DNA of 64,000 nt, from assembly GCF_003688495.1 (NCBI RefSeq), contig NZ_REFH01000011.1, positions 62,001 through 126,000 of the forward strand, given 5' to 3'. Origin of the DNA: Flavobacterium weaverense. GTDB taxonomy: Bacteria > Bacteroidota > Bacteroidia > Flavobacteriales > Flavobacteriaceae. Within the stretch, counting starts at the first letter, position 1, and each line of letters opens with the position of its first letter. Both the position numbers and the translations under genes were made by a program. Positions 49,074 through 63,839 of this stretch are shown one piece after another. Under the pieces are notes generated by a model that was not told the origin of the DNA, made no database searches, and saw only the letters and a list, made by a program, of their open reading frames with translations.

Positions 49074-49586
49074 GTTCTTGGTTGCCCTAAATCAGTAGTA
49101 GAATATTTAGGAAGATATACCCATAAAATAGCCATCAGCAACAACCGAATCCAAAGTATTGACGATCAAAACGTGACTTTTAGCTATAAAGATTACAGGC
49201 AAAACGGGTTCAAAAAACAAATGACACTTACTCACGCAGAATTTATCCGACGATTTGCGTTGCATATTTTGCCCAAACGTTTTGTCAAAATCCGCCATTA
49301 TGGCTTTTTAAGTAGTACTTGGAAGCGGGATAAATTAAAGATTTTACAAGAAAAACTGAAGGTAAAACTGCTAGAGAAAGTAGAAAAAAAAGCTTTTTTA
49401 CCCAAATGTCCTTGTTGCAAAACGGGTAATTTACACCGAATAGCGGTTTTTGACCAGCGTGGTCCGCCTCCCGAAGCGTCGGGATGGTATCTTGGCATAG
49501 CCAAAGTTCTCCCGATAGCTATCGGGACCCCAAAAATTAACTTTATGGGTAACGGATTTTATGCCCAATCTCGAAGCTTGGAGTGA
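49074..49586 (+). pseudogene. IS91-family transposase, C-terminal remnant
   Basis: The frame reads PKSVVEYLGRYTHKIAISNNRI, then MTLTHAEFIRRFALHILPKRFVKIRHYGFLSS and a zinc-finger-like CPCCKTGNLHRIAVFDQRGP, the C-terminal third of Y2-type IS91 transposases (PF04986). The catalytic N-terminal part with the paired tyrosines is missing, so it is inactive. Two short palindromes (49470-49484 and 49511-49526) interrupt the last part. The sequence continues directly into repeat copy b, which supports that repeat being the IS end. Confidence 0.85.
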
Positions 49587-49790
49587 AGGAAGTCACTATA
49601 AAAACCATTATGTTTATACTGCAAAAAAAAGAGGCGTTTTAGCCTCTTGAAATTATTCTTACTCATGTATCGTAAACCCCATAAGGGATGGATGTAGAGC
49701 TGTTCCAGCTTGTCCGCCGTGGCGGATTCAATAGCGGGTTCATTGTTGACTTTTCAAGCCCAACGAGCTCTTCTGCGATCGCTATTTTAT
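49587..49790 (+). repeat. IS91-end repeat, copy b
   Basis: It continues from the transposase remnant. It includes a GAGGC-TTTT-GCCTC terminator hairpin (49629-49648), GTCCGCCGTGGCGGAT and the end hairpin region GTTGACTTTTCAAGCCCAAC (49744-49763). It stops 30 bp from the acetyltransferase stop codon. Confidence 0.85.
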
Positions 49791-50457: not shown

Positions 50458-50660
50458 GTCGCACAACGTTAGTCTGTGAAAAAACTTCCGCTTTATTCTT
50501 TCAAAAATAGTCAAATTATTTCACTAAAAGGAAGAAAAGTTGTATGCGTTAACAACGCATCACAGTAATACCGAGCAATGAGACGTGTTTTTCTCCAGAA
50601 GCTTCGAGATTAGAAGACACTATTTCATCAGAAAATCCTAATCGGTTTATAAGTTGAATT
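50458..50660 (+). repeat. IS1182-type 5' end remnant, copy ii
   Basis: It starts GCACAACGTTAGTCTGTG and carries the shared TCTTTCAAAAATAGTC and AAAGGAAGAAAAGTTG blocks and CATCACAGTAATACCG. It then has a broken frame equivalent to the transposase N-terminus ending near SENPNRFI. It runs straight into repeat copy c. Confidence 0.75.
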
Positions 50661-57526: not shown

Positions 57527-58019
57527 CGCCAGCCACTTGGAAGTCCAAAATCAGTGGTGGAATGCTTAGGAAGATATACCCATAAAATAGCCGTTAGCAA
57601 CAACCAAATCCAAAGTTTAGACGATCAAAACGTAACTTTTTGCTACAAAGATTACCATCAAAACGGATTCAAAAAAAAAATGACACTTACTCACGCAGAA
57701 TTTATCCGAAGGTTTACGTTGCATATTTTGCCTTAACGTTTTGTAAAATCCGACAATATCGCTATTTGAGTAGCACTTGGAAACGGGAGAAACTAGAGAT
57801 TTTACAAGAACAACTACACGTAAAAGTGCTAGAAAAGGTAGAGAAAAAACCTTTTTTGCCCAAATGTCCTTGCTGTTAAAAAGGCAGTTTACATCGGATA
57901 GCTTTTTCATCAGCGTGGTCCGCCTGCTTGGTATCTTGGCAGTAGCCAAAGTTCAAATCCCTGTAAGAGCTAACTTTATGGGTAAGGGGTTTTATGCCCA
58001 ATCCCGAAGCTTAAAGTGA
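57527..58019 (+). pseudogene. IS91-family transposase, C-terminal remnant (second copy)
   Basis: The frame reads PLGSPKSVVECLGRYTHKIA, SNNQIQSLDDQNVTF and HAEFIRRFTLHILP, then stops and frameshifts. Homologous blocks to 49074-49586 follow (YLSSTWKREKLEILQEQL, KCPCC, NFMGKGFYAQSRSLK). The zinc-finger part is broken by a stop, and the two short palindromes present in the other copy are missing. It continues directly into repeat copy d. Confidence 0.85.
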
Positions 58020-58186
58020 AGGAAATCACTATAAAAACCATTCTGTTTATACTACAAAAAAAAAGAGGCGTTTTAGCCTCTTATAATCTCTCTACTCATT
58101 TTACGATAACTCCATAGTGTTGACGGCATGTAATCGGTTCCGTTCAACCCTGGCTTCATTATTCGCTTTTTAAGCCCAACAAAGCT
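58020..58186 (+). repeat. IS91-end repeat, copy d
   Basis: It contains the GAGGC-TTTT-GCCTC terminator (about 58062-58083), TTTACGATAACTCCATAG, GCATGTAATCGGTTCC, GGCTTCATTATTCGC and TAAGCCCAACAAAGC. It runs up to the ketopantoate reductase stop codon, with no spacer. Confidence 0.85.
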
Positions 58187-59792: not shown

Positions 59793-60115
59793 CACAACGT
59801 CAGTCTATGAAAAAACTTCCGTTTAATTCTTTCAAAAATAGTCAAATTATTTTAGTAAAAGGAAGAATAGTTGTATATTAAATGATGTAACATATCACAG
59901 GAATACCGCGCAATCAGGAGGTCTTTTCTCCCGGCACTTCGGGATTAGAAGACAGTATTTCACAAGAAAATCCTATTCGATTTACAGATGCTTTTGTAGA
60001 AGCTGTATCATTCGCATCTTTAGATTTTTCAGTTCAAACCATCAAAATAGTGTGACGCCCGAGCATCGAAACCAAAGTTTTTCTCAAAATTTAGCGCTAC
60101 TGTTCTTTAATATGA
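59793..60115 (+). pseudogene. IS1182-type 5' end and transposase remnant, copy iv
   Basis: The 5' block (CACAACGTCAGTCTATG, TCTTTCAAAAATAGTC, AAAGGAAGAATAGTTG) is nearly identical to copy ii. Then a frame reads ITGIPRNQEVFSPGTSGLED, SISQENPIRFTDAFVE and FSVQTIK before breaking down. The middle of the element is deleted, and the sequence runs into repeat copy e. Confidence 0.8.
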
Positions 60116-60278: not shown

Positions 60279-60959
60279 CTATATATTCATAATTTGATCT
60301 ATTTTACTTTGCGTATTATCAATAGATTTCAAAAATGGAATTAAATCAGGATTTATCCATTCAACAAGATTGTAAAGTTTCGTCCTTATTTGAATTGCTT
60401 CAGAACAATCAATATTATGCGTTTGAAAACAGATTGGTTCACAGTGATTCACTCGATTTCGAAAACTTCTTAAATCATCTAACTTTGAATATATACTTGC
60501 TCTATCTTCAGTAGCTGGTTTATATGGGAAAATATGTATAGGCTGTCCGCTAACTAACGCGTAATGATGTGGCAGAAAAAAAGCAATCCAAAACCCAAAA
60601 GTTTGGTCTGAAATTATTTTACCATTCGTAATTGGTATAGCGCGCCTATTTAATTTGTTTTCTGTCTTTCGTATAGATGTTTTCAAATAATAATATGAAC
60701 TATTTAAAGAATGATGACTCATAAATCCGGATTTTTGATTTATTATCCAATCAGGATCTGCAAAATGAGTTGCCATTTTTAAGCAGAGACTGTTTCTTAA
60801 AATTACTTCGAACTGACTTAGAATAGGATGAAATGCTTGTGCTAACCTTATATTTGCATTATATAGCCTTTTTGCTCTATCATTGTTATTTGCTGTTGCA
60901 GCCAAATACCTATTATATCTTGGCCTCGAAAAATACTTGTAACGTAATTCTTTTTTCAT
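60279..60959 (-). CDS. Abi-like protein with HEPN-type RNase motif
   Basis: A 226-residue protein from the ATG at 60959 (MKKELRYKYFSRPRYNRYL). A longer frame to 60998 would overlap the -7 box. The pattern fits the Abi_2/AbiF group: NDRAKRLYNANIRLAQAFHPILSQFEVILRNSL at residues 25-57 and FGFWIAFFLPHH in the middle. RSFRNRVNHCEPIC has R-x4-H (RNRVNH), the HEPN ribonuclease site. Such proteins cause abortive infection or act as toxins. A partner non-coding RNA or antitoxin is possible but I saw none. Confidence 0.8.
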   Translation of the reverse strand: MKKELRYKYFSRPRYNRYLAATANNNDRAKRLYNANIRLAQAFHPILSQFEVILRNSLCLKMATHFADPDWIINQKSGFMSHHSLNSSYYYLKTSIRKTENKLNRRAIPITNGKIISDQTFGFWIAFFLPHHYALVSGQPIHIFPYKPATEDRASIYSKLDDLRSFRNRVNHCEPICFQTHNIDCSEAIQIRTKLYNLVEWINPDLIPFLKSIDNTQSKIDQIMNI

Positions 60960-60995
60960 ATGTGTTGCACGTTCGATATTTATTTGTAAATTTAC

Positions 60996-61003
60996 CAAAT
61001 ATA
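60996..61003 (-). promoter_or_regulatory. -7 box of the Abi-like gene (minus strand)
   Basis: Minus-strand TATATTTG matches the consensus, 36 bp before the ATG at 60959. Confidence 0.5.
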
Positions 61004-61375: not shown

Positions 61376-62938
61376 ATGAAAGCAACAAGAGATATAGAAT
61401 ATAAGAATGTAGAAGAACTCACCTTGGACATTAACAATCCAAGATTTGCAGAGCTATATGTCGGAAATGGATCAGAGGATAATCTCATTCAGTATTTATT
61501 AGATAATGAGGCTGGAATTGAAGTAGCTAAGTCTATAATAGCTGCAGATGAATTTTATTCAGATAGACCACTTTGGGTTTTAAAAAAAGGACATGAGTAT
61601 ATTGTAAAAGATGGAAACAGAAGATGTGCTGCAGTAAAAGCTTTACAACTTCCTGGAAAGTTCGCTATTGATTTACCCAAAACGATTATTGAAGAAGTAC
61701 CAATTATTGTATATGATGATGAAGAAGATCTTAATAAAAGAATTTTTTTAGAACACGCTAATAATACTTTTAGAAGTTGGGAAAGAATAGCTCAGGCAAT
61801 AGAGGTTTACAAACTGTTTAAATCTGGAACAGACCTCAAATTAATGAGCGAATTAGATTCTCAACCAGGACAATTAATAAAACTTGCAAGTTTTTACAAA
61901 GCAGCAGTCATATATGGTGAAGATAGTTTAAAAAAGCTATTAACTAGAGGGAGAGGAAGAACAGGAGGAAGAACTATTATTTTTGAAAGACTTTTTAAGT
62001 ATTCTGACAAGTGCGGATATAAATTTAAAGCCAAACCAAGTTTTGAAATTTCGATTCATGATGAAACGAAATTTAAATCATATATTCTCTCACTGATTAA
62101 CTTATTAGAATCCGATTTAGGCTATGAAATAAAAACAGACACAATAGATGGAGAGAAAGAAGACTTTATGAGTAGACTTAAACCTTATGGATTTGACTAC
62201 TTTTTTATAGAATCAGATGAAGACAAACAAGATATAGAAGTGGCTAAATCTGATAATTCTGATCTAATTTCTACTGGCGAATCTATTAAGCATACTGCTG
62301 GGAAATGCGCTACGGAAAACGAAAATGTAAACTCCAACGAAAATTATGAAGACAAAACAGATATTGAAAAAAGTTATAATAATGGGTCAACCACAAATGA
62401 GGACAAAAATAATAATTCTTTAAGTGCTGTTAAAAATTCAGGAAAAAGAGGAAGTACCAAAACTAAGCCCACTATAGTGCGAAAAAAAATACCAGCAGGA
62501 GTTAGAAATAGAATATCTGAATGCTATGGACTTCCTGCAATTCAGAATCCTATTGCAAAACTTGCCTTGGTAAGGATTGTTTATGAATGTACTTTAAAAT
62601 ACATTGTTGAACACACACACTATAGTTCTAAAAATAAATTACCAAAATCAAATCACTTTCAGTCAGCATATCGAGATAAAAAAAATATACCTTATCCTTC
62701 AACTAATTTTGATGAGTTGCACAAAAATTTCATAAAATTAATTAAAAACCAAGGAATGAAAAGAACATTCGAAAATTTTAAAATGGATCAATTACAACAA
62801 ATAATTCACAACTATAATGCAGTTGGAATACCTACCAACGCTACTAATTATTGTGCAGAGTTAATACCAATTTTAGATTTTTTATTAGCTGATGAAAATG
62901 TTTTTTTAAGTTCAATAGATTTAACCAATATATCATAA
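61376..62938 (+). CDS. ParB/Srx-like-domain protein with C-terminal helical domain
   Basis: A 520-residue protein. The N-terminal 130 residues form a ParB/sulfiredoxin-type domain: VEELTLDINNPRFAEL, PLWVLKKGHEYIVKDGNRRCAAVKAL with the DGNRR motif at residues 79-83. A helical middle part follows, then a low-complexity Asn/Asp/Ser/Lys-rich linker (about 285-375) and a C-terminal helical domain of about 140 residues (IPAGVRNRISECYGLP onwards). That last domain has no family I recognise. The next gene starts 4 bp after the stop. ParB-like domains occur as NTPases or nucleases in phage-defence and plasmid systems. The role is unknown. Confidence 0.85.
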   Translation: MKATRDIEYKNVEELTLDINNPRFAELYVGNGSEDNLIQYLLDNEAGIEVAKSIIAADEFYSDRPLWVLKKGHEYIVKDGNRRCAAVKALQLPGKFAIDLPKTIIEEVPIIVYDDEEDLNKRIFLEHANNTFRSWERIAQAIEVYKLFKSGTDLKLMSELDSQPGQLIKLASFYKAAVIYGEDSLKKLLTRGRGRTGGRTIIFERLFKYSDKCGYKFKAKPSFEISIHDETKFKSYILSLINLLESDLGYEIKTDTIDGEKEDFMSRLKPYGFDYFFIESDEDKQDIEVAKSDNSDLISTGESIKHTAGKCATENENVNSNENYEDKTDIEKSYNNGSTTNEDKNNNSLSAVKNSGKRGSTKTKPTIVRKKIPAGVRNRISECYGLPAIQNPIAKLALVRIVYECTLKYIVEHTHYSSKNKLPKSNHFQSAYRDKKNIPYPSTNFDELHKNFIKLIKNQGMKRTFENFKMDQLQQIIHNYNAVGIPTNATNYCAELIPILDFLLADENVFLSSIDLTNIS

Positions 62939-62942
62939 ATAT

Positions 62943-63839
62943 ATGTTTTATTCACCTTTACGCTATCCTGGAGGAAAAAATAAATTATCTTCATTTATTG
63001 CTAAAATATGTATTGATAATAATATTCATTCTCATTATGTAGAGCCTTATGCAGGGGGAGCATCAGTAGCAATGTTTTTATTAATTGAAGGTTTTGTGAA
63101 AGAGATTACCATAAACGATAAAGACAGATCTTTATTTGCTTTTTGGCACTCTGTTCTTAATGAAACTGAAAGATTATGTGAAATGATTTTAAAATCAGAA
63201 ATGAGTATAGCAAACTGGGATTTACAAAAAGCAATTCAGAAAGACAAAGAAAATATTGACTTATTAAGTCTAGGGTTTTCCACACTTTTCTTAAATAGAA
63301 CAAACAGGTCTGGAATTTTAAAAGCAGGAGTGATTGGAGGTAAAAATCAAGACGGGAATTACAAGATGGATTGCAGGTTCAATAAGGATGAGATTATAAA
63401 TAGAATTAGATTGATATCGTCTTTTTCAAAAAATATAACTCTTTATAATTTAGATGCTATAGATTTAGTAGACCAGATAGAATTCTCCTGCAAACTCAAT
63501 ACAATTTTTTATTTTGATCCTCCATATTATTTAAAGGCAGATTCGTTATACATGAATCATTACAATGATTTGAATCATATATCTGTTAGTGATAGAATAT
63601 TGAAAATAAAGGATTCAAAATGGATAGTCTCATATGATGAACATGAATTTATAGAAAATTTGTATGTAAACAAAACAAAGAAAAAATACAGTTTTAATCA
63701 TTCAGCATTTGAATCAAGAGAGGGAAAAGAACTTCTTTTTTTTAGTGATAATTTAGTTTTACCCGATGTAAATGATTTTATCCCAACACGATTTTCATTA
63801 AAGAAATCAAAAGGAAAAAAAGAAATTATATACAAATAA
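62943..63839 (+). CDS. D12-class N6-adenine DNA methyltransferase (Dam-like)
   Basis: A 298-residue methyltransferase. The N-terminal SPLRYPGGKNKL, the SAM-binding VEPYAGGASVAMFLL (residues 33-47) and the catalytic DPPYY at residues 192-196 are the motifs of the D12/Dam group that makes N6-methyladenine. FLNRTNRSG is the usual internal segment. It is complete at both ends and starts 4 bp after the ParB-like gene, so both proteins are made from one message. No restriction endonuclease is seen in the window. The recognition site cannot be predicted. Confidence 0.93.
   Translation: MFYSPLRYPGGKNKLSSFIAKICIDNNIHSHYVEPYAGGASVAMFLLIEGFVKEITINDKDRSLFAFWHSVLNETERLCEMILKSEMSIANWDLQKAIQKDKENIDLLSLGFSTLFLNRTNRSGILKAGVIGGKNQDGNYKMDCRFNKDEIINRIRLISSFSKNITLYNLDAIDLVDQIEFSCKLNTIFYFDPPYYLKADSLYMNHYNDLNHISVSDRILKIKDSKWIVSYDEHEFIENLYVNKTKKKYSFNHSAFESREGKELLFFSDNLVLPDVNDFIPTRFSLKKSKGKKEIIYK

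Follow-up and report, generated by a model that had tools for sequence, protein, structure and literature searches.

A divergent Flavobacterium version of the PD-Lambda-5 anti-phage pair combines a ParB-like protein with a predicted HEPN-like domain and an adenine methyltransferase

The window analysed here, a stretch of 64,000 nucleotides from Flavobacterium weaverense (contig NZ_REFH01000011.1, positions 62,001 to 126,000), carries near its right end two adjacent genes, referred to as A and B, of which A encodes a ParB-like protein and B a DNA methyltransferase. A lies first, B follows on the same strand after a gap of 4 base pairs (bp), and both frames are open (61376-62938 and 62943-63839). 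A first-pass annotation of the sequence had described two intact genes with this spacing and proposed a candidate defence or modification operon, and was right on both counts. Its statement that no named system holds this pair was mistaken: from their matches to PADLOC models, A and B are almost certainly a divergent Bacteroidota version of the PD-Lambda-5 anti-phage system. Because the pair belongs to a described system, the claim of novelty falls and the defence reading gains. The features of the pair, with residue conservation taken from two alignments of A proteins (A1, 22 rows; A5, 26 rows), are as follows.

61376..62938 (+), gene A, ATG start, 520 amino acids (aa); PD-Lambda-5_A-like, with a ParB-like module, a linker and a predicted HEPN-like C-terminal domain (C-domain)
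61376..61780 (+), A residues 1-135, ParB/Srx nucleoside triphosphate (NTP)-binding fold, from predicted structure
61610..61624 (+), A residues 79-83, DGNRR motif, from sequence
61781..62215 (+), A residues 136-280, helical stretch resembling the DNA-binding regions of ParB-family proteins, from predicted structure
62222..62455 (+), A residues 283-360, linker of low complexity with predicted disorder (predicted local distance difference test score, pLDDT, <50)
62471..62935 (+), A residues 366-520, C-terminal domain with a HEPN-like fold, predicted by a separate model
62573..62575 (+), Arg400 of A, conserved in 26/26 A5 rows and 21/22 A1 rows
62807..62809 (+), His478 of A, the same in every A1 and A5 row; NY comes next in Flavobacterium A
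62943..63839 (+), gene B, ATG start, 298 aa; PD-Lambda-5_B, D12-class N6-adenine DNA methyltransferase
63042..63059 (+), EPYAGG, motif read in the B sequence
63516..63527 (+), DPPY, motif read in the B sequence

B matched the PD-Lambda-5_B model PDLC04018 over residues 2-278 of 298 (E 3.6e-113) and the Pfam family MethyltransfD12 (PF02086; E 2.3e-16); its EPYAGG and DPPY we take to be the S-adenosylmethionine (AdoMet)-binding motif I and the catalytic motif IV, respectively. A was matched by 19 PD-Lambda-5_A models (best E 4.9e-12), 18 of which cover only its first ~130 residues, and the sole one covering residues 8-504 is PDLC03995 (E 6.8e-11). An unnamed system was ruled out by these matches. 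E. coli KSC207 carries a pair from these families (A, 557 bits to PDLC03998; B, 404 bits to PDLC04018), next to the portal gene of a prophage that is P2-like by gene order. Flavobacterium A aligns with KSC207 A along its length, and N21, R23, GNRR, W135, R400 and H478 are common to both. Judged against this E. coli pair, the Flavobacterium pair shares with PD-lambda-5 the gene order, the architecture of A, the invariant residues and the methylase family, but its A is merely 16% identical and it lies in an accessory region rather than a prophage. The pair is a new, divergent member of PD-Lambda-5, real and conserved, and not a new system.

PD-lambda-5 was published as a two-gene defence system of E. 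coli recovered by functional selection; according to the accessible text of that study, it is termed a compacted RM+Abi (restriction-modification plus abortive infection) system, T-even phages are the best restricted and the E. coli test host is without the mrr region (Vassallo et al. 2022, PMC9519451). Anti-phage activity is demonstrated for the E. coli system in that literature, and homology suggests it for the Flavobacterium pair.

The whole of A was modelled by AlphaFold2 from 26 sequences (mean pLDDT 79.5). In this model, residues 1-135 best match the ParB-CDP structure 7bnk_A (Z 11.1, root-mean-square deviation (rmsd) 2.1, 95 aligned residues, 30% identity), and the range 5-280 matches KorB 8qa9_B (Z 9.8, 202 aligned residues, rmsd 5.3). 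The DGNRR motif noted by the first-pass annotation is found at residues 79-83, with its GNRR invariant in A1 and A5, and the low-complexity linker that it described corresponds to residues 283-360. The N-terminal part of A is, as predicted from these folds, a ParB-type NTP-binding and DNA-binding module; together with the PADLOC matches, the predicted fold fits the earlier guess of a ParB-type NTPase next to a methylase.

This arrangement resembles the CTPase (cytidine triphosphatase) clamps ParB, KorB and Noc, in which an NTP-binding fold is likewise followed by a helical DNA-binding region. ParB carries GERR where A has GNRR, and ParB ends in a dimer domain, whereas A is predicted to end in a HEPN-like domain in its place. 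A does not have the setting of a canonical ParABS partition protein, the ParA partner not being adjacent to it: searching the genome itself with Pfam AAA_31 and CbiA, no ParA-family gene was found within 40 kb on the contig, the nearest match (C5:167050, in a 795-aa frame) being >40 kb off. In GmrSD and SspE, too, an N-terminal ParB-like module is linked with DNA modification (the N-terminal part of A matches SspE 6jiv at Z 4.8); by the accessible text of their descriptions, however, both cut DNA, GmrSD sensing glucosylated hydroxymethylcytosine (glc-HMC) and SspE phosphorothioate. These two and BREX-related systems were set aside, as A has no nuclease domain by Pfam and the pair has nothing else.

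Sequence searches with A gave few matches besides PADLOC. Pfam returned no domain at E up to 1, so the earlier description of the C-terminal domain as unrecognised was fair; NCBIfam returned none either. Pfam HEPN families were absent for A and, among the matches listed, for its relatives (25 of 33 families). Searches of A with Pfam, NCBIfam and PHROGs turned up no recognisable restriction nuclease. A sequence search of the Protein Data Bank yielded only ParB 4umk (E 0.0004) and a weak match to mL77, a tblastn search of plasmids yielded zero matches, and a single-sequence scan of genome contigs found 0 relatives.

The C-terminal 155 residues were also modelled alone, the best model having a pLDDT of 90.5 and a predicted template modelling score (pTM) of 0.86. 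Its top match in VIA-align was 2hsb (Z 10.0, 116 aligned residues, rmsd 3.3), and other matches were sacsin HEPN (9.1), HepT-type toxins (~8), AbiV and HepS (6.2) and Csm6 (6 to 7). Rows 1-31 are nearly all HEPN, and the first unrelated row, number 32, is a designed protein (Z 5.4). Eleven of the 31 are titled HEPN, and 3mfn is a protein of unknown function; the others are HEPN proteins, several of them (2q00, 1ylm, 1jog and Csm6) by the accessible text of a 2013 survey (PMC3710099). The structure prediction that the first-pass annotation had proposed for this domain thus returned a HEPN-like fold, and the fold, as modelled, is HEPN. To the HEPN toxins and RNases (HepT, AbiV, HepS, Csm6) A is likened by the predicted fold of its C-domain and by a conserved His; it differs from them in having no RX4-6H motif, and its conserved Arg sits 78 residues ahead of the His in a different helix.

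An association of ParB, HEPN and methylase is already in print, as the accessible text of the same survey describes HEPN-ParB fusions, and the HEPN protein MAE_28990 in an operon with ParB and a methylase, among HEPN-R-M systems (R-M, restriction-modification; PMC3710099). Those proteins are set apart here, with no evidence of a common family with A and no Pfam HEPN match in A. In the open-access literature searched, supplements being outside its scope, no mechanism of PD-lambda-5 was found (PMC9519451, PMC10799925) and no HEPN-like domain was named in PD-Lambda-5_A; a figure or supplementary table of PMC9519451 may already document such a domain. A 2023 table of HEPN-bearing systems, in the accessible part of its source, holds PD-T4-2, PD-T4-5, PD-T7-3 and ApeA and not PD-lambda-5 (PMC10952713), and HEPN is unmentioned in the main text of a 2025 ParB-fold survey (PMC12704722).

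Linkage of the two genes was counted around strong B matches, for which lines of 270 and 280 bits were picked after the scores had been seen. Among 59 sampled genomes with a B match, the 19 at no less than 280 bits were counted along with 8 genomes of the genus, two of them shared, giving a total of 25; strong B is rare in Flavobacterium (8/299 genomes). In 22 of the 25 Bacteroidota genomes, strong B has an A-type gene no more than 500 bp away, so the pair does co-occur elsewhere, a matter that the first-pass annotation had left to a search across genomes. The 22 include two genomes with A in pieces (G186 and G275), one with the pair at a contig end (G206) and one (G234) in which the counted gene is a 376-aa ParB-only protein downstream of B, the full-length A being ~2 kb off on the other strand. 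As for the three without A, G161 has an AAA/TOPRIM-like gene, and G456 and G323 have neither type (B being interrupted in G323). From the 40 genomes with weaker B, three were inspected (G192, G109 and G342), none of them with A within 500 bp.

Viral B loci were counted among the 80 listed of 579 relatives. Within 500 bp of B, 23 of the 39 contigs at 270 bits or more carry A; 14 others carry an AAA/TOPRIM-like protein (type T) and two neither, one of which begins at B (L136), the other having a ParB-only protein plus a 338-aa open reading frame (ORF) upstream (L123). One locus counted with A, L140, encodes a 369-aa protein. None of the 41 loci below 270 bits has A or the AAA type. Some of these loci went into the A profile, and 11 of the 14 that the AAA profile marks went into that profile; such loci match by construction, and these figures count the position of the genes.

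Scanning from the side of A, 74 viral loci were collected by one N-terminal peptide pattern (EGNRR type), and four cut by contig ends were dropped. B at 270 bits or more accompanies A in 54/54 uncut loci that have the C-domain (52 as a single ORF, 2 split) and in 0/16 with the ParB part alone. The two groups fall into 21 and 9 clusters, respectively, at 50% identity (Fisher p 7e-8), and without the 13 loci already in the B-anchored scan the link between C-domain and B is 41/41. Throughout this viral sample, the HEPN-like domain is thus found only with a strong methylase. Relatives of A at 40-62% identity occur in F. palustre, other Flavobacterium, Pontibacter, a metagenome-assembled genome (MAG) of Cytophagales and two MAGs filed under Parcubacteria and Saccharibacteria, the last two of which may be binning errors. 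Ten A loci of genomes comprise eight with B, one cut, and one in Flavobacterium xanthum (L107) without B, in which A breaks off near residue 164 and thus has no C-domain.

The ParB-only viral loci have other companions: in 15/16 the next ORF is one of 304-379 aa, and in 12 a cytosine-type methylase lies nearby (by eye, from motifs). Six of the following ORFs were tested, none having a Pfam match with E better than 0.03 and one having PADLOC matches (E 0.006 and 0.007). A ParB-only protein, a ~330-aa protein without clear family and a convergent cytosine methylase stand together in L246, L248, L250-L252, L254, L258 and L264. In phage Wphi (L092:96-3266), gp98, gp96 and mth follow the same three-gene plan, which runs parallel to PD-Lambda-5.

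Comparing 82 non-identical A-B pairs with one another gives 85 cases in which B is identical at 70% or more, and in 10 of them A is <25% identical; these ten represent few events, as five involve contig L133 and five the genomes G199, G558, G524 and G467. Between L133 and L229, B is 90% and A 19% identical; their DNA matches at 84% through the last base of B, fails to align across A and matches again, at 86%, from 0.7 kb past A. Likewise, B is 82% and A 20% identical between G199 and G558. With A at ~19% identity beside B at up to 90%, the sequences suggest that A types are exchanged as a cassette around conserved methylases. Such swapped cassettes offer natural chimaeras for testing self/phage discrimination.

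The same type of methylase occurs with partners other than A. Two of the T proteins were tested and both match AAA_15, while their TOPRIM label comes from a VLDGD motif read by eye. Loci with a B-type methylase and an AAA/TOPRIM-like protein include L098 (E. coli JJ1887), L088 (Citrobacter phage phiNP), L091 (a Streptococcus phage), L110 and L146; PADLOC gave only mixed partial matches for such a pair (PtuA, AriA, GajA and others), which may be an unnamed system. In G524 (L080:7803-11849) and G688 (L082:8230-12330), one B-type methylase is flanked by both a ParB-HEPN A and an AAA_15/TOPRIM-like T, making dual-effector systems with one shared methylase a possibility. Another methylase-guarded candidate is seen at L086:9284-13829 (G109), where a D12 methylase is followed by HerA-like and NurA-like ORFs (by eye).

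A mechanism can be proposed in which a mark set by B, a ParB-type clamp and a HEPN-like effector act in turn; taken as a whole, it is an evenly balanced proposition. B would methylate its site throughout the host DNA, and self-protection is quite probably its role. A would act as a ParB-like DNA clamp gated by NTP: where host DNA is marked it would be kept from loading or stay idle, and it would engage phage DNA without the B mark; that missing methylation triggers A is plausible, though slightly less than an even call. Loading or nucleotide turnover would then free the HEPN-like domain, which would attack RNA or another cell target and halt the infection, perhaps via cell shutdown, and that this domain is the effector appears somewhat favoured. 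The linkage of C-domain and methylase and the truncated, B-less A of F. xanthum fit such a mechanism without proving it. Restriction of T-even phages would fit an effector that needs no cut of modified phage DNA, and a test host without mrr would be expected if the B mark is foreign to E. coli. A fuller version is put forward only tentatively: a methylation-gated switch with a ParB clamp licensed by the missing adenine mark, a non-canonical HEPN-like effector, swapped cassettes and an immunity methylase common to them; methylases of this type would guard AAA/TOPRIM-like effectors as well, both at once in two Flavobacterium genomes. If the anatomy holds, PD-lambda-5 joins a ParB clamp, DNA methylation and a HEPN-type domain in two genes, and the question of self versus phage reduces to whether missing methylation loads the clamp and frees the HEPN-like domain. 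What merits further work is the HEPN-like domain, the way it is tied to the methylase, and the exchange of A.

Several observations weigh against this mechanism and the fold on which it depends. RX4-6H is absent from the C-domain in 26/26 A5 rows and 20/22 A1 rows (Flavobacterium A not being among the two A1 rows that have it), so that HEPN RNase activity of A is not assured, the missing Arg being the main reason for doubt. The five C-domain models spread from pLDDT 53.6 to 90.5; the VIA-align scores, at 10.0 or less, fall under the Z of ~13 below which, by the aligner's own caution, likeness of helical bundles may reflect common arrangement only; and Foldseek on the C-domain alone gave no match at E <0.001 (best 0.82, with HEPN proteins near the top). 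The EGNRR-type pattern samples only part of the A family, and two ParB-only loci have a D12 methylase ~1 kb off at 252-253 bits, just below the line of 270. Finally, A at 19% identity beside B at 90% is awkward if A reads the target site of B, unless its conserved core does so.

The absence of RX4-6H is also a point for a compact R-M system, an unlikely but the best surviving alternative, in which the ParB/Srx-fold module of A would nick or cut unmarked DNA and the HEPN-like domain would be non-catalytic, binding RNA or protein. Accessible parts of the literature refer to ParB/Srx proteins with nuclease activity, and as the ParB-only relatives pair with a 304-379 aa protein and usually a methylase, the ParB module is the common element. 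Yet it is the C-domain, and not the ParB part, that tracks the D12 methylase (54/54 versus 0/16), suggesting that the C-domain is the dangerous part. Moreover, the T-even phages that PD-lambda-5 restricts best have DNA protected from many nucleases. Improbable, by comparison, is a sensor of phage protein, in which a toxin-like A would be triggered by a phage product that binds its linker or its HEPN-like part, with B serving mainly as an antitoxin or regulator instead of marking self-DNA. The C-domain matches include HepS in complex with the tail tip protein J of lambda (Z 6.2), and A is swapped while B stays, like a sensor under arms-race selection; however, B retains its catalytic motifs, and the presence of the same B type with AAA/TOPRIM-like proteins in 14/39 viral loci suggests a generic DNA-marking role. 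Although prophages often carry orphan methylases, a chance juxtaposition, or a methylase of regulatory function next to a ParB gene unrelated to it, can be dismissed almost entirely, as A within 500 bp of B in 22/25 genomes and 23/39 viral loci, and B at all 54 uncut C-domain loci, speak strongly against it.

On the left of the pair lies a HEPN Abi-like gene, as the first-pass annotation had observed (60279-60998, minus strand), which matches Pfam Abi_2 at E 0.0024 (below the Pfam cut-off) and PADLOC PD-T4-5 at E 4.9e-13, and which holds RX4-6H as RNRVNH. It was rejected as a third component, as no homologue was found in the 30 other loci scanned (phmmer, E 1e-3). A prophage location in F. weaverense was likewise rejected, the neighbouring ORF lists holding no phage genes by eye. 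Downstream, mostly beyond the window, XRE-like regulator, SusC-like, peptidase, primase-like, relaxase-like and TraG-like genes were seen by eye, and further on, eight chosen proteins gave PADLOC matches to SoFic, NsnABC, PDC-S31, a TIR effector and a cyclase. Genes resembling those of type I R-M systems come after these and, like a RadC-like gene of the same island, were recognised by eye. With this island on one side and the PD-T4-5-like gene on the other, the pair borders a mobile region rich in defence genes. The defence island occupies G000:C5:143000-160600 (L029, L189), right of the window, SoFic being ~17 kb from the pair.

Dispersed repeats lie left of the pair at 57536-58063 and 59793-59876 of the window, with copies at 49077-49630 and 50462-50545; further copies at 66-90% occur elsewhere in the genome and genus, some of them ~3 kb apart. 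By eye, 57554-57736 resembles a remnant of an IS91-type transposase, and the repeats may have moved accessory genes to this locus.

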